A DNA stretch of 34,139 bases. Origin: an uncultured Chlorobiaceae bacterium. Lineage in GTDB: Bacteria > Bacteroidota > Chlorobiia > Chlorobiales > Chlorobiaceae. The notes under the pieces were generated by a model. It was not told where the DNA came from, did not search any database, and was given only the letters and a program-made list of their open reading frames with translations. Positions 4,649-34,105 of this stretch are shown in pieces (position 1 is the stretch's first letter; each line of letters opens with the position of its first letter). Location: positions 1 through 34,139 of the forward strand of contig CAIPKT010000133.1 in NCBI GenBank assembly GCA_903865705.1. Direction: 5' to 3'. The translations under genes were made by a program, and so were the position numbers.

Positions 4649-5368
4649 ATGATCGCTCTTGAAGGGCTCAGCTTTTCCTATCCTGACGGGACAAAAGCAA
4701 TCGACCACATCAGCCTTACCATTACTGAAGGGAGCTCTGTGGGTATTGTGGGGGCAAACGGTGCCGGAAAATCGACTCTGGTCAACCACCTGAACGGCTA
4801 TTACCTGCCCCGCGAGGGCTCCATTTCAATTGGCGGGATACTTGTTTGTAAAAAACATCTTGACCGGATCCATAAAATGGTGGGCCTGCTTTTTCAAAAC
4901 CCGGATGACCAGCTCTTTACGGCAAGGCTCTATGATGATGTCGCCTTCGGCCCGGAAAATCTCGGTATCAATAAAGCCGATATCGCAATACTGGTGGAAG
5001 AGGTGCTCCGTGAACTGAACCTCTGGGAGTTGCGCGAAAAACCGCCAGCCCACCTGTCGCAGGGTCAGAAGCGATTTGCATCTTTTGCTACGGTGCTGGT
5101 GATGAAGCCTGAGGTGATTATCATGGATGAACCAACAGCCGATCTTGACCCGAAAAACCGCAGAAAGCTGATTAACCTGGTTAATGGGCTTGGCATAACA
5201 AAAATAACGGTGTCTCACGACCTTGATTTTATCTGGGATACCTGCCAGAGAGTTTGCATCATGAACCGGGGCCGCATCGTGGCTGACGGCCCGGCCAAGG
5301 ATATTCTCGGCAACAGGGACCTTCTTGAGGCCAACAGTCTGGAACTTCCGTTACGTCTTCAGGGTTGA
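4649..5368 (+). CDS. cbiO: ECF transporter ATP-binding protein CbiO/NikO
   Basis: ABC ATPase that powers the metal transporter. Walker A is GANGAGKST (about residue 35), the Q-loop is LLFQNPDDQLF, the signature is LSQGQKR, Walker B is VIIMDEPTADLDP and the switch histidine is in TVSHD. It starts 12 bases after cbiQ, completing an M-Q-O operon. The length, 239 residues, is slightly short for the family. The stop codon TGA at 5366-5368 lies within the end of an IS200/IS605-type remnant that starts at 5365, so the last residues may have been altered by that insertion. Confidence 0.9.
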   Translation: MIALEGLSFSYPDGTKAIDHISLTITEGSSVGIVGANGAGKSTLVNHLNGYYLPREGSISIGGILVCKKHLDRIHKMVGLLFQNPDDQLFTARLYDDVAFGPENLGINKADIAILVEEVLRELNLWELREKPPAHLSQGQKRFASFATVLVMKPEVIIMDEPTADLDPKNRRKLINLVNGLGITKITVSHDLDFIWDTCQRVCIMNRGRIVADGPAKDILGNRDLLEANSLELPLRLQG

Positions 5369-5432
5369 CATCCTCCCCGCCCTAAAAGACGAGGATTCCT
5401 ACTGCGTCAGACACCCCGTGGTTCTGATAGCT
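5365..5432 (-). mobile_element. IS200/IS605-type right-end remnant, copy 1
   Basis: On the minus strand this ends with a hairpin (arms around CCGCCC / CGAGG) and the terminal tetranucleotide TCAA, as known for right ends of IS200/IS605 elements. It matches 34000-34067 with three mismatches in 68 bases. The match stops abruptly at AGCT (5429-5432), after which the sequence is a PHP gene fragment. A continuation of the same element tail is found at 9163-9203. No transposase gene is attached. Confidence 0.72.
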
Positions 5433-5556
5433 CGACCCCGATCAACAGGAGAGGATCTTCTTCTCCGTTATAGGTTCTATAATACTCAGCGTATGCATCA
5501 ACATTGATGATGTTGTGATCAGTTAATGAGAATATTCCGACTCTGTTCTCCACCAT
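5407..5556 (-). pseudogene. PHP-domain phosphoesterase fragment (truncated)
   Basis: A minus-strand reading frame too short for most ORF callers. From ATG at 5556 it reads VGIFSLTDHN, then an aromatic-rich stretch (DAYAEYYRTY), then DPLLLIGVELS. The TDHN and (L/I)GVELS patterns are metal-site motifs of the PHP (polymerase and histidinol phosphatase) domain. It then runs into the IS200/IS605 right end and stops at 5407. In complete PHP proteins an HxH motif lies before TDHN and several hundred residues follow; both are missing. GGAGG lies just upstream of 5556, so the fragment might still be translated (49 residues); an in-frame ATG at 5583 is also possible. Its start lies right after the R' side of attC1, where the next integron cassette gene would begin. 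Confidence 0.6.
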
Positions 5557-5588
5557 TACACCGCCTCCAATTTGTTTCTTCATTTCTC

Positions 5589-5717
5589 AGCGAACGGTTT
5601 GCGTTACCTGCGTGTGGGCGGGCGTGGTCTCTGCTTGGGAGCAGAAAAAAATTAGAGCCAGAAAAATGCTCGAAAATGCCGCAGAATCCCACATGTCAGG
5701 TGCACGCTTTGTTGGGT
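5589..5717 (-). other. Integron-type attC site 1
   Basis: Read on the minus strand, the site begins with R'' ACCCAAC (5711-5717) just after the stop of the GIY-YIG gene and ends with R'-like GTTCGCT (5589-5595). The two arms form a long imperfect palindrome: GCGTGCACCTGACATGTGGG on one side and a near-complement (GCGTTACCTGCGTGTGGG on the plus strand) on the other. A variable middle has its own small hairpin (CTGCTTGGGAGCAG). Length 129 is within the range for attC. R' deviates from GTTRRRY at two positions. The arms share bases with attC2. Confidence 0.72.
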
Positions 5718-5730
5718 GCGTTTTTATTTT

Positions 5731-6417
5731 TCACTGATTCAATAATGTTAACCCTTTTTGCCGATAATAAGATATTAGCAATGTTTCAATAAAAACTCTC
5801 GCTGTTGGCGAGTGCAGGTTATTTAACTTCACATCTATGTTATTTATCGTGATTTGCTCAATCCGCAAAGATTCTAAACCTATTTTGTAACCCTGCTTGA
5901 CAAATTGCTGAAAGTCCTGATGTAAACGTAAGTTTGTGCTAGATGAATCTGGATAAAGATAGCCTTCAAGCCTTTCTGGACAAAGTTGCTTTGTTGTGCC
6001 GATATAAGCATATCGGATTTTCTCTCGACTATCTTGGTAAACAATCCATCGGTAAATTGCTGGATATTTGTAGTTTTCGAGCATGTATGGGCTGACTGGC
6101 TCAGGAAAGAAATACTCTTTTTCTTTCTCACAAAAAACTGCTTCCCATCGAAATTGAAAATCTGTGCCTAGCGAATGACCATCATCTTTTATTTCTGCGT
6201 CAGGCGGAGTTTCGTCATTAGTCACAAATCCTAACTTTCTAATTCTTGACCTGATTGCGCTTGGCTGACGATGGAAAAGTTTTGATAATTGCGAAACGCT
6301 TGCGCCATTTGCAAATTCCTGCTTCAACAAAGCGTCATCAAATTCAGTCCATTTATCATAGGCGTTTGGATAAGAAATTTTGATTTGCTTTAATCGTTCG
6401 TGATATGCCAATGACAT
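5731..6417 (-). CDS. GIY-YIG-like nuclease with N-terminal HTH (cassette gene)
   Basis: A 228-residue protein with no sure family name. Residues about 22-63 form a helix-turn-helix (KWTEFDDALLKQEF, then SVSQLSKLFHRQPSAIRSRI), suggesting DNA binding. Residues 119-140 contain PAIYRWIV and YAYIGTTK, which fit the GIY-YIG hallmark with IY and YIG and about 13 residues between. R149 and E211 (FIETLLISYY) fit the catalytic Arg and metal-binding Glu of that fold. No signal peptide or membrane segment. Start: ATG at 6417 has AAGGG seven bases upstream; the longer frame to 6462 would run into attC2. The gene fills the space between two attC sites in the array direction, a standard gene cassette. A site-specific nuclease or regulator is possible; function is not established. 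Confidence 0.66.
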   Translation of the reverse strand: MSLAYHERLKQIKISYPNAYDKWTEFDDALLKQEFANGASVSQLSKLFHRQPSAIRSRIRKLGFVTNDETPPDAEIKDDGHSLGTDFQFRWEAVFCEKEKEYFFPEPVSPYMLENYKYPAIYRWIVYQDSREKIRYAYIGTTKQLCPERLEGYLYPDSSSTNLRLHQDFQQFVKQGYKIGLESLRIEQITINNIDVKLNNLHSPTARVFIETLLISYYRQKGLTLLNQ

Positions 6418-6456
6418 AATTTGCCCTTGTTTTTTTACTTTATTTTGCAGGAAAGC

Positions 6457-6554
6457 ACCCAACGGTTTGCGTTACCCGCTTGAAACGGCGGGCTTAGATA
6501 ACTGCTTGGATTTACGCACAGCCCGTTTCAAGTCGGGTGCACGCTTTGTTGAGC
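6457..6554 (-). other. Integron-type attC site 2
   Basis: On the minus strand: R'' GCTCAAC (6548-6554) inside the last codons of the small upstream gene, then GCGTGCACCCGACTTGAAAC, a variable middle, the complementary arm, and R' GTTGGGT (6457-6463). Both boxes match the RYYYAAC and GTTRRRY consensus. The two arms pair over more than 20 positions with a few unpaired bases, the structure expected for the folded bottom strand used by IntI integrases. 98 bases long. It shares CAACGGTTTGCGTTAC-type ends with attC1. Confidence 0.8.
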
Positions 6555-6707
6555 GGCTTTTATGCGGGCGCGGATTTTTGTGATGCGTTCACGGTCAATA
6601 TTATCGAAAAGAACATGCTCGTGACCATCCGACTTTGCGGGCTGTGTACATGCGTTACTTTCAAGCATGTTTAGCAACTCAACTATGATTTCCAATAACT
6701 CATTCAT
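6528..6707 (-). CDS. Small cassette protein of unknown function, 59 residues
   Basis: Begins MNELLEIIVELLNMLESNA and ends RIKAAQQSVHPT. Start chosen at 6707 because GAGG lies six bases upstream; the in-frame ATG at 6743 falls in an R'-like box. Predicted mostly helical and acidic at the start, basic near the end. No known family recognised. Its last eight codons lie in the R''/L'' part of attC2, which is common for integron cassettes. It is bounded on the 5' side by GTTGGGC (6735-6741, minus strand), consistent with the recombination point of the preceding site. Confidence 0.5.
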   Translation of the reverse strand: MNELLEIIVELLNMLESNACTQPAKSDGHEHVLFDNIDRERITKIRARIKAAQQSVHPT

Positions 6708-6734
6708 GCAAACCTCACTGGCAGAAGGGATGCC

Positions 6735-6790
6735 GCCCAACAATAATTAGATGGATCCGCCTAAACCGCGGATTTTTGAATAATAACATA
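6735..6790 (-). other. Possible third att site (R'-like box and hairpin)
   Basis: GTTGGGC on the minus strand (6735-6741) fits GTTRRRY at the expected start of the 59-residue cassette. Beyond it a hairpin ATCCGC/GCGGAT (about 6755-6773) is visible, but no clear R'' partner. It could be a decayed attC or the edge of the array. Confidence 0.35.
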
Positions 6791-7015
6791 TAACGCGCGA
6801 TTGAAAAAACACAAAATCATCTGTTAACCACTTGATTATAAATCTCTTATGCCTTATATCGCGGATTATTTCGACTTCTTATACGGATCGACATAACAAC
6901 TTCGCCTTTTCCTGAATGATATTGGTCGTCGGTTACTACCGTCACTCCAGCATAGGAGCAACAATACACCTCATCAGTGGCATTGCGTGGAGAATTACCT
7001 CATGATGTTGATTAA
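6791..7015. other. Non-coding stretch between cassette cluster and AbiE locus
   Basis: A/T-rich sequence without a supported gene on either strand. It joins the minus-strand cassette cluster to the plus-strand toxin-antitoxin pair. I see no further attC arm or repeat in it. Confidence 0.5.
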
Positions 7016-7067
7016 TGTTCAATTATTTGTTATGTTCAAATTAAATGAACAAAGAATATATTGAACA
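7016..7067. promoter_or_regulatory. Nested inverted repeats over the abiEi start: putative autoregulatory operator
   Basis: Four TGTTCA-type half sites: TGTTCAAT (7016-7023), TGTTCA (7033-7038), TGAACA (7046-7051) and ATTGAACA (7060-7067). They form an inner inverted repeat with a 7-base spacer and an outer one of eight matching bases. The start codon at 7045 lies inside. AbiEi antitoxins are known to repress their own operon by binding inverted repeats; use of these repeats here is inference. No good Shine-Dalgarno sequence is present. Confidence 0.55.
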
Positions 7068-8097
7068 TAAATTAGCCGGAGACAACGCAGAAATCCTTCG
7101 GCAGGCTATGGAAGCCCTGAAGAGGATCGCACCACTGGAATACGCGATTGAACCGGGTCACGTCATTCATGACCAGAGATACGACTTCCTGATAAAGGGA
7201 AAAGTTTTCGGGGACGCATTCGTTTGGTGCGTCGAGGTAAAAAAATATCTGACCAAAACCGGCGAACTCCAGGTTCTCGTAAACAGGGATAAGATGCCTC
7301 ATCCATTTGTGCTGGCGACAAGATACATTCCCCCTGAGACCGCGGCGAGATTGCGCGATGCCGGCATCCAGTTCATCGACACGGCCGGAAACGCCTTTCT
7401 CAATCAACCTCCACTGCTGATTTTCGTTCAAGGAAATAAACCGGAAAAGGAAGAAATCGTCCTTCCCACAGCGCGTCTCTTCAGAGGAGTTGGCCTGAAG
7501 ATCGTCTACCTCTTTTTGTGCCAACCGGAACTCGTCGAGAAAACGTATCGCGATCTGGCCGGGATGGCGAATGTCGCCTTGGGAACGGTGAAAAGCACCA
7601 TGACCGAACTGATCCAGAAAGGCTTCATCTTCGACATGGGCAAAAAGGGGAAAAAGCTTCGGGATAAAAAGAAGCTCTTTGAGCGCTGGATTACAGCGTA
7701 TCCCGACTACTTAAAACCTAAACTGTTGATGGGACGATTCCGGGGCGATGGGGAGTGGTGGAAGGACATCCAACTGGATCTCACCCTCGCGCAGTGGGGC
7801 GGCGAGGTTGCCGCAGCGAAACTGACCGGATACCTGAAACCTGGCACGGTAACGCTGTATGCGGACAAGCATCGTCTCGGAGAACTCGTGGTCGCCAATA
7901 GACTGAAAAAAGACCCGCATGGCAATATTGAGATTCTCGAACGGTTCTGGCCGCTGAACAATGACTTCGGTGAAGGCGATACGGTGCACCCGATCATCAT
8001 CTATGCTGACCTTGTCGCTATAGGCGACCAACGCACAACGGAAACCGCAAGAATAATTTATGACCAACATATCGATCAATATTTCAGGCAGGATTGA
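7045..8097 (+). CDS. AbiEi-like antitoxin/regulator of type IV toxin-antitoxin pair
   Basis: A 350-residue protein. The N-terminal half has YDFLIKG (D47) and WCVEVKKYL (E64, K66), spaced like a PD-(D/E)XK nuclease-fold core. Next comes GIQFIDTAGNAFLN (about 108-120), typical of the AbiEi-like family paired with nucleotidyltransferases. Residues about 153-197 (KTYRDLAGMANVALGTVKST...) are a winged helix-turn-helix, and a C-terminal domain follows. The next gene overlaps by 38 bases and encodes the nucleotidyltransferase partner, so this is most likely the antitoxin and repressor. The mid-protein wHTH with a nuclease-like N-terminus differs from the compact AbiEi with an N-terminal wHTH. ATG at 7045 lies within repeated operator half sites. 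Confidence 0.75.
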   Translation: MNKEYIEHKLAGDNAEILRQAMEALKRIAPLEYAIEPGHVIHDQRYDFLIKGKVFGDAFVWCVEVKKYLTKTGELQVLVNRDKMPHPFVLATRYIPPETAARLRDAGIQFIDTAGNAFLNQPPLLIFVQGNKPEKEEIVLPTARLFRGVGLKIVYLFLCQPELVEKTYRDLAGMANVALGTVKSTMTELIQKGFIFDMGKKGKKLRDKKKLFERWITAYPDYLKPKLLMGRFRGDGEWWKDIQLDLTLAQWGGEVAAAKLTGYLKPGTVTLYADKHRLGELVVANRLKKDPHGNIEILERFWPLNNDFGEGDTVHPIIIYADLVAIGDQRTTETARIIYDQHIDQYFRQD

Positions 8098-8935
8098 CCC
8101 TGAAAGAGTATCTGCTTTGAGAGAGATCAATGACGTTGCCAAGGAACTCAACATAAATTTCTTCGTGGTGGGGGCTTTCGCTCGCGACGTGATCTTTGAA
8201 CATATTCATCGAATTTCCGCTCCTCGAATGACGGAAGACATCGATATTGGCATTGAGGTGGCAAGTTGGGAAGAATTCAAACGCCTGACTGACACCCTGA
8301 TCGAGCGCGGGCATTTCTCCCCGACAAATTTACAGCACCGCTTCAGTGCCATTTCATTTGCAACCCTTATAGATATCGTGCCCTATGGGGGGATTGGCGA
8401 CGAAAGGAAGCGGATCAGTTGGCCTCCAAACCATGACATGATCATGAGTATCCTCGGGTTTGAAGAAGCGTATCAATCAGCATTGAACGTGCGGTTAAGC
8501 AACGATCCGCCTGTGGAGATTCTGGTTCCTTCGATACCTGCACTGGCACTCCTGAAAATCATCTCCTGGGACGATGCTTACCCGGAACGCGAGCGTGATG
8601 CCCTTGATCTTCTCTTCATCCTTGAAAAATTCGAATCGACTGACATTCTGAATAAACTGTACGAGTCCCACGTACCCTTGCTCACCGAGGAAGAATTCGA
8701 TCCCCAGCTTGCTTCCGTTCGACTACTCGGACAAGAAATAGCGCAGTTGGGCAACACGGAGACGGTAAGCACAGTAGAGAAAATTCTTGCCCGTGAAACC
8801 GACGAAGACCAGGGGTTCAGGATGCTCTCGCATATGGTCAAGGGTGTTTCGTTGCAGAGTATCATGTTTGAGAAATCTCTGCAACTCCTCAGAAAGCTTT
8901 TGCAAGGGATTCGAGAAGAAATGCAAAGGGAGTAA
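8060..8935 (+). CDS. AbiEii-like nucleotidyltransferase toxin
   Basis: A 291-residue protein of the nucleotidyltransferase superfamily (AbiEii/AbiGii type). The fold's signature is visible: FFVVGAFARD (G38, R42, D43), then TEDIDIGI (D60, D62), and a third acidic residue in LIDIVP (D105). The family motif LLKIISWDDAYPERERDALD (K166, R177, D180, D183) follows. AbiEii proteins block growth by transferring nucleotides to RNA or tRNA targets, giving phage defence or plasmid stability; the target here is unknown. It overlaps the upstream gene by 38 bases in another frame, so the two are translated together. No membrane segment. Confidence 0.82.
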   Translation: MTNISINISGRIDPERVSALREINDVAKELNINFFVVGAFARDVIFEHIHRISAPRMTEDIDIGIEVASWEEFKRLTDTLIERGHFSPTNLQHRFSAISFATLIDIVPYGGIGDERKRISWPPNHDMIMSILGFEEAYQSALNVRLSNDPPVEILVPSIPALALLKIISWDDAYPERERDALDLLFILEKFESTDILNKLYESHVPLLTEEEFDPQLASVRLLGQEIAQLGNTETVSTVEKILARETDEDQGFRMLSHMVKGVSLQSIMFEKSLQLLRKLLQGIREEMQRE

Positions 8936-9162: not shown

Positions 9163-9203
9163 AGCTTCGGCGAGTGCCTTTTGCTGACGGTATTATTGCC
9201 CCG
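9163..9203 (-). mobile_element. Fragment of IS200/IS605-type tnpB 3' tail
   Basis: The first 28 bases (9163-9190) are identical to 34064-34091, within the element tail near the right window end; weaker similarity continues to about 9203. Translated on the minus strand in the second copy this region gives ALAEAIS-like residues just before a stop. It begins with AGCT, the same four bases that end copy 1 at 5429-5432. Confidence 0.6.
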
Positions 9204-9249: not shown

Positions 9250-9696
9250 TCATGCCTTCAAGGCGTCACGGAAAGCCGTCCGCAGTTGTTCGACCCGCCC
9301 GCGGTTAACTCCAAGATCCGAGATGCCAAGCCGTGAAGAGGAACGAACATGGATCACCCCTTCCTGGGGGCTGAGCCGGAATTCAACGTCATCAACAAAA
9401 CCAAATACCGGTATAAGATAGGTCGACCATAGGTACTCTTTTTCTGCCTTGTGCACAACTCCCCCGTTTTCCTCGACGATACGTTTCAGTAGCGCCCAGG
9501 CATGTTCCTCCGGGCCGGTGAAACTGAAGGGGTCAATTCGGACTATCGGATTGGTACTTTCGCTGCACACCGCGTTCGGCGTTCCGGCACAGGGCCTCAG
9601 TTTTCCGTTTACCAGTTGCGGTTCCTCAGTTGGTTGCGGCCAAATAGCGGAAAGCTGATTTGTTATTGCACCTACGGCATCATTGAATATGCTCAT
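9250..9696 (-). CDS. DUF1499 family protein
   Basis: A 148-residue protein. Visible family features are CAGTPNAVCSE (the pair of cysteines near the start of the domain), KAEKEYLWSTYLIPVFGFVDDVEFR and IHVRSSSRLGISDLGVNRGRVE, the DUF1499 signature ending in RSaSR.G.sDlGvNR.R. No signal peptide in the chosen frame. Function of DUF1499 is not established. It is the first ordinary gene to the right of the accessory island and is transcribed toward it. Confidence 0.85.
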   Translation of the reverse strand: MSIFNDAVGAITNQLSAIWPQPTEEPQLVNGKLRPCAGTPNAVCSESTNPIVRIDPFSFTGPEEHAWALLKRIVEENGGVVHKAEKEYLWSTYLIPVFGFVDDVEFRLSPQEGVIHVRSSSRLGISDLGVNRGRVEQLRTAFRDALKA

Positions 9697-9831
9697 TTCA
9701 TTTGCTCCGGTTATTTGCTTCTTTTATTTGCTGTTATCATGCTTGCTCAAGATATTGTGGGGGCATGTTTGGGGCGATACCGATATGCACACTTTATGCG
9801 GTCTGTTCGGGGTCCGTTCGGGATTTATGGT

Positions 9832-10674
9832 TTAGCCATCAATCCTTGAGGTCAGCTCCTCAGCCATCTTTTTGTCGGCAAGTTTGACGGTTATCTCGGC
9901 AATATCGCGAGCGGAATTGACGTGAAATACAACCACGTCAAAAACATCGGTCACGCGCACAATTGCTGTCAGATCGTCGATATATTTGCTGATACCAAGA
10001 AAACTCAGGGGCAGCAGACATTTTACATGATAGGGATTGCTGAGAAAAATGCCGTAAGGCTGTACTTTAAGCACCGTACCGGTAAAGGTTTCGCCGACGT
10101 CGGGAAGAGGAACAGAAAAATCGTGATCGGCACCTGCCATGAGCCCTTCGACGCGCATGGTTTCTCCCGGCTTGACCTGTTCGATACGCTCCCGGAGGAC
10201 GGAGAGGTCATAATAGGCTATACCCGGTTCTGTAAGCAACTCCCTTGCGCTCAGCCCTTGTGTGGAATAGACTATAACCTCCTTGCCCCTCTCTTTTAAA
10301 GCCCGCAGCAAGGGAAGAAAATCACTGTCACCACTGAAGAGGATAAAGGTATCGTACTGATCAGCACGGCTTAAGGCATCAACGACAAGTTCAACGTCCA
10401 GATTGCCTTTCATGATGATGACGCCTGTTTCCTTATTGACAATCTTTTTAACGGGTTTGGAGGTGATCCGATAGCCATGGGCCGTCAGCACTCTTGTGAA
10501 TGCTGCATTTTCTTCAGTCACTGGTTCAGATGCCGGAACGTAATAGTTTGCCTGCACTGCGGCATACCCGGACATAAAAAAAGCCATTAAACGGGAAAAA
10601 TCGATCTGCCACCCAAGGTGGCGCTGCGTGAAGAACAGATTTGCTCCATCAATAAAAACAGCTGCACGGCCCAT
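9832..10674 (-). CDS. NYN domain (LabA/DUF88-type) protein with C-terminal S1-like domain
   Basis: A 280-residue cytosolic protein. Residues 1-160 are a NYN/PIN-like ribonuclease domain: AAVFIDGANLFF (D9), GNLDVELVVDAL, and ILFSGDSDFLPLLRAL provide the acidic metal site. About residues 190-275 (VGETFTGTVLKVQPYGIFLS, then CLLPLSFLG, then VTDVFDVVVFHV) look like an S1/OB RNA-binding fold. So it is probably an RNA-processing nuclease with its own RNA-binding module. Typical LabA-like proteins have the NYN domain followed by a shorter OST-HTH or no extra domain. The target is unknown. Confidence 0.78.
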   Translation of the reverse strand: MGRAAVFIDGANLFFTQRHLGWQIDFSRLMAFFMSGYAAVQANYYVPASEPVTEENAAFTRVLTAHGYRITSKPVKKIVNKETGVIIMKGNLDVELVVDALSRADQYDTFILFSGDSDFLPLLRALKERGKEVIVYSTQGLSARELLTEPGIAYYDLSVLRERIEQVKPGETMRVEGLMAGADHDFSVPLPDVGETFTGTVLKVQPYGIFLSNPYHVKCLLPLSFLGISKYIDDLTAIVRVTDVFDVVVFHVNSARDIAEITVKLADKKMAEELTSRIDG

Positions 10675-33999: not shown

Positions 34000-34105
34000 T
34001 TGACATCCTCCTCGCCCTAAAGGACGAGGATTCCTACTGCGTCAGACACCCCGTGGTGCTGATAGCTTCGGCGAGTGCCTTTTGCTGACGGCCTTGTTGC
34101 ACCGT
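34000..34105 (-). mobile_element. IS200/IS605-type tail, copy 2 (tnpB 3' remnant and right end)
   Basis: Read on the minus strand: a short frame ends ALAEAISTTGCLTQ-stop (stop at 34034-34036), followed by the right-end hairpin (CCTCGCCC / GGACGAGG) and the terminal TCAA at 34000-34003. An in-frame stop at 34106-34108 shows the frame is not continuous to the window edge. The first 68 bases match copy 1 at 5365-5432; 34064-34091 match 9163-9190. The window ends at 34139, so a larger element beyond the edge cannot be judged. Confidence 0.68.

Follow-up and report, generated by a model that had tools for sequence, protein, structure and literature searches.

The window, by which we mean the whole stretch of 34,139 nucleotides analysed here, comes from an uncultured Chlorobiaceae bacterium, and the evidence fits the earlier assignment of its host to the green sulfur bacteria. 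Beside cbiO it carries a 3.9-kb island comprising the 3′ end of a tnpB relic, what is very probably an integron remnant, an AbiE pair and a second tnpB piece. The array in this island reads, in order, attI, cassette A, attC2, cassette B, attC1 and a truncated cassette C. The features are as follows.

5365-5432, minus strand: 3′ end of a tnpB relic of IS200/IS605 type, fused to cassette C; 96% identical to 34000-34067
5433-5594, minus strand: cassette C (third, truncated); ORF from just past attC1 into the tnpB relic
5589-5717, minus strand: attC1; leave-out nhmmer E = 1.2e-30; covariance model R1, 126 bits
5595-6462, minus strand: cassette B, 868 bp; 81% identity over its whole length with a Chloroflexi array cassette
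5731-6417, minus strand: cassette B ORF, 228 aa; 83% amino acid identity to the Chloroflexi copy
6457-6554, minus strand: attC2; leave-out nhmmer E = 5.3e-9; covariance model R1, 88 bits
6463-6740, minus strand: cassette A, 278 bp, from the TT of the attI core to the G of attC2, with G|TT recombination points
6528-6707, minus strand: cassette A ORF, 59 aa; stop inside attC2
6741-6905, minus strand: attI, by homology to nine intI-bearing same-genus integrons; core G|TT at 6741/6740
7045-8097, plus strand: AbiEi-like antitoxin gene; Pfam PF09952, E = 8e-44
8060-8935, plus strand: AbiEii-like nucleotidyltransferase toxin gene; Pfam PF08843, E = 1e-6
9163-9203, minus strand: following piece of the tnpB relic, at the opposite end of the island; 90% identical to 34064-34104

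Recombination sites, cassettes and island borders

By every sequence test applied, 5589-5717 and 6457-6554 are attC sites, as the original prediction had proposed from their architecture. A leave-out nhmmer profile of 10 homologous attC sites, all from genomes other than the window's, gives two matches in all in the 34-kb window, both significant and both at these positions, 739 bp apart. On the minus strand, which is also the strand of both genes as had been predicted, each site consists of R'', AAAGCGTGCACC, a variable middle, GGTAACGCAAACC and R'. The proposed RYYYAAC and GTTRRRY end boxes are present (R'' GCTCAAC and R' GTTGGGT in attC2, R'' ACCCAAC in attC1), with the exception of the attC1 R' box, GTTCGCT, which deviates from GTTRRRY because its final bases belong to the truncated cassette C. 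Alignment of the two sites bears out that their arms are nearly identical; the arm ends occur as a pair nowhere else in the window's genome, and covariance model R1, which represents the window attC type, matches just the two window sites in that genome. In an alignment of 12 sites (A2), 92.7% of the stem cells are paired and 11 pairs have changed on both sides, a covariation reached by 0 of 500 shuffles. The extrahelical base C16 is invariant and A22 nearly so, and both are the unpaired bases expected of attC. Moreover, attC1 shows 78% identity over 123 bp (E = 1e-18) with the attC adjoining an intact intI in a same-genus genome. Thermodynamic folding of both palindromes is moderately unusual only (z from -1.6 to -3.3), and an Rfam search gave no match. 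R3, a generic attC model trained on the heterogeneous attC of the genus itself, detects sites downstream of many attI copies; it misses both window attC and has no match in the remainder of the window's genome.

A third box, GTTGGGC at 6735-6741, had been read as the start of the 59-residue ORF's cassette. The box is real, and what had escaped notice is that it forms the core of an attI. The stretch 6735-6905 shares 72-76% identity with the segment that separates the first cassette from the intI stop in nine same-genus integrons that have intI, and the match extends from a few bases from the intI stop through the core ATTATTG|TT. The last ~45 bp of attI, AAAAATCCGCGGTNTAGGCGGATCMATCTAATTATTGTT, are nearly invariant over 42 full-length copies, and the window fits this consensus. 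Judged by homology, 6741-6905 is a complete attI. It probably contains the cassette promoter. The genus attI consensus includes TATAAT, where the window has TATTAT; in a promoter scan no candidate stands out, and the number of candidates is about equal to the chance expectation.

The ORF of cassette A ends within attC2 (stop at 6528), in agreement with the original prediction; it has no Pfam or PADLOC match, and no homologue was found in 300 Chloroflexi relatives. The ORF of cassette B shows a dN/dS of 0.10 over 228 codons against its Chloroflexi copy, and the gene is therefore under purifying selection. Searches of Pfam, PADLOC, PDB, phage and viral sequences gave no relative; one partial plasmid match covers 24%, and the AlphaFold model of the protein (pLDDT 37) is unusable. 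The first 162 bp of cassette C remain, with a ribosome-binding site and an N-terminal ORF (ATG at 5556), up to an abrupt cut at 5433.

The AbiEi- and AbiEii-like genes are divergent from the array and lie upstream of attI, where intI would be expected. In most relatives compared, which are without the island, cbiO is followed directly or after a short gap by sequence starting at window 9250-9860, and in two of them (L160 and L161) the island-less joint is nearly exact. The tnpB piece at 5365-5432 is absent from relatives. Because the two relic pieces have a contiguous copy at 34000-34104 and have AGCT in common, it appears that the integron-AbiE segment was inserted into the tnpB relic or was joined to it via the 4-bp match.

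Probable origin of the cassettes

A counterpart of cassette B, with 83% identity in protein and 81% in DNA, lies within a multi-cassette array in a Chloroflexi MAG (QMIW01000087.1, isolate CFX4; L171, 428-1323). The cassette, its attC and the proximal arm of attC are all included in the similarity, which drops to 23% just past the distal recombination point. Six attC were found in this Chloroflexi array, all of the window's type. Among relatives of the MAG, model R1 detects this attC type in 46 of 61 genomes, with up to 55 sites per genome, many of them in long arrays, and a full IntI is present in 33 of the 61; in the window's genus, at least one R1 site is found in 8 of 61 genomes. The attC type is thus homogeneous in one lineage and present as rare single copies in the other, which argues for transfer from the first to the second. 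These results suggest that the window cassettes came from Chloroflexota-type integrons, where the phylum of the MAG that holds cassette B is given by its database label and by the abundance of the attC type across its relatives. The original prediction had not recognized this attC type as that of another phylum. At the level of sequence, the locus is a clean case of cassettes passing between Chloroflexota and the genus to which the window belongs.

Inference of donor taxa from attC types was established with taxon-specific attC models, of which 11 have been published, Chloroflexota not being among them (PMC8352920). Our reasoning is of the same kind, whereas the donor type in the window is one that those models leave uncovered, and the cassettes were received by a sedentary integron from a different phylum. 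Since the published models are without that phylum (PMC8352920), a Chloroflexota attC model could serve as a new tracer of cassette origin.

Absence of intI and history of the locus

No IntI over the TIGR02249 cut-off was found in the window's genome (2.48 Mb, 226 contigs, completeness 100), in line with the earlier claim that the cassettes lack an integrase, and tblastn detected no intI remnant at the window locus. Because the genome is a 226-contig draft, intI could be held by a missing contig. Three candidates, on C30, C177 and C95, were rejected as ordinary tyrosine recombinases, with matches that skip the IntI insert (profile ~180-240) and score far below the cut-off. A frame-broken tyrosine recombinase, with frames of 129 and 131 aa and also not IntI, lies at G000:C30:57727-58382 (L014).

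In the same genus, IntI exceeds the TIGR02249 cut-off in 10 of 37 genomes. G002, G008 and G023 carry attC of the window type 3′ of intI, and G010 carries it next to a broken intI; the genus therefore includes integrons whose intI points towards attI and the cassettes. In Treponema, too, intI is transcribed towards attI, and the Treponema IntI groups with that of Chlorobium phaeobacteroides (PMC3607928). Same-genus relatives of the window's host share this arrangement, with attI 3′ of intI and with intI and cassettes in the same direction, whereas at the window locus intI is gone and attI is kept. A study on integrons with intI pseudogenes cites such pseudogenes in Xanthomonas (PMC2426708). There, as at the window locus, the integrase is lost and the cassette array is left; the difference is that the window intI has been removed wholly and that the genus has many attI relics at differing loci.

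Taken with the attI, these comparisons make us rather confident that the locus is a decayed remnant of an 'atypical' chromosomal integron, which has lost intI and has kept attI together with Chloroflexota-type cassettes. Recombination of attI with attC by IntI is the established capture mechanism for integrons in general. A chromosomal integron with intI transcribed towards attI would once have occupied the locus, and its IntI, now lost, would have put circular cassettes into the attI core (6741/6740) by recombining a folded single-stranded attC with the double-stranded attI. The cassettes would have been imported from Chloroflexota-type integrons, carrying their attC with them. Later, intI and the upstream flank up to the intI stop codon would have been lost, so that the AbiE-like pair now adjoins attI, and the distal end of the array would have been cut inside cassette C and joined to the tnpB relic. 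Transcription of the surviving genes probably starts from a promoter within attI, and the array would be frozen in the absence of an integrase provided in trans.

We weighed this history against three other readings. That imperfect palindromes sit between genes would also be expected if they were REP- or MITE-like repeats or terminators, a reading to which we give almost no credence: the genome-wide search found two copies only, which disposes of the dispersed REP elements named in advance as the counter-case; their boxes, arms and extrahelical bases match those of attC beside intI and in multi-cassette arrays; and the cassette between them has moved as a unit. A cluster of attC lacking integrase (CALIN) is defined by at least two attC and no IntI (IntegronFinder, PMC9024848; PMC8618304), and this label, under which the locus was originally described, is formally correct because the locus has at least two attC with genes in cassette orientation and the genome has no IntI. 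As a description it is incomplete, since attI is retained and a truncated third cassette follows attC1. In its plain form, cassettes would have been inserted off target at a secondary site by an IntI encoded elsewhere, and the locus would never have been a platform. The formal label and the lack of an intI remnant speak for such an origin, whereas the site upstream is homologous to attI over its full length and is no random GTT, and we therefore consider it very improbable. A CALIN is defined by attC alone, whereas the window locus keeps a complete attI in which its integron origin is visible; because the third box is the core of this attI, the locus is better described as a decayed integron than as a free attC cluster.

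The third reading is a variant of the decayed-integron explanation, in which an orphan attI already without intI was loaded in trans by an IntI encoded elsewhere. It agrees with the orthologous attI loci that lack intI and differ in their first cassette, of which C12 lies in this genome. Against it, no orthologue of the window locus with other cassette content was found and the genome is now without IntI, and we judge it unlikely, yet with a far stronger claim to attention than the two readings above.

attI copies and apparent cassette turnover in the genus

With the window attI as query, copies were found in 29 of 37 same-genus genomes, compared with the 10 that have IntI over the cut-off. 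G010 and G012 have 11 matches each, and G003 has 8 on an assembly of 10 contigs with no intact IntI. Among the 67 attI copies examined, some lie beside an intact intI, many beside truncated 3′ intI remnants and many beside neither. Of these 67 copies, 24 have an attC within 4 kb. Every attC hit outside the training set (36/36) shares its strand with an attI of the same locus, and 32 of the 36 are downstream of it. We set aside the view that the attI copies are ordinary repeats, given this strand agreement and the intI tails that many copies carry. These results suggest repeated gain and decay of integrons, with attI outliving intI, and attI may perhaps persist owing to the promoter it carries. 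In the window's own genome, a second attI core without intI is found at G000:C12:7705-7750 (L141, 4206-4251), and a third, more degenerate attI-like sequence lies at G000:C182:3460-3506 (L142, 3460-3522).

Four groups of intI-less loci have a common upstream flank and a different first cassette. In G000:C12, G024:C50 and G003:C3, a stretch of 0.7-1.1 kb with 87-91% identity ends 4-5 bases beyond the attI core. Unrelated cassettes of ~0.8, 1.2 and 1.2 kb, respectively, come next, and after them the three loci have a common downstream flank again; the cassettes of G024:C50 and G003:C3 terminate in attC-like sites. L124 and L139 (G012 and G002) show 87% identity in the 4.15 kb that lead to the core and are different past it, and as both have the same degenerate intI tail, intI had already decayed by the time the two loci split. 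L151 and L158 (G023 and G006) match at 99.8% in the 3.9 kb preceding the core and are different after it, where L158 has just 185 bp of downstream sequence, and L135 and L136 show the same pattern over 0.5 kb. No intI was found upstream of these cassette-swapped orphan loci within the up to 4 kb searched.

The simplest reading of these comparisons is that an IntI encoded elsewhere acts on orphan attI in trans. Differences in the first cassette may also come from misassembly at repeated cores, from transfer of whole loci or from differential loss out of longer ancestral arrays. The usual description of an integron is of a single platform that encodes its own integrase. We tentatively propose, rating the chances a little short of even, a distributed integron in which an IntI from another locus still lets dispersed orphan attI take up and swap cassettes, the window locus being a port loaded with Chloroflexota cassettes. 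The literature searched contains no description of dispersed orphan attI, which is weak evidence as subscription papers were mostly outside its reach. The parts are of known kind; what is new is their combination and the network of orphan attI of which it forms part. The window locus would document genes captured across the border between phyla and draws attention to a genus rich in orphan docking sites like it, and orphan attI with different cassettes at orthologous positions make integrase service in trans around the chromosome testable.

Tandem attI-type sites follow intI in L065 (G017, 4883-5108). The second of them resembles the divergent attI of G002 and G008, and two attI lineages therefore seem to coexist in the genus. 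The cassette-array stretches of L062 (G023), L126 (G019) and L138 (G028) are ~98% identical with different first cassettes, and these three loci form a series of intI decay, in which intI is intact, internally deleted and nearly gone, respectively.
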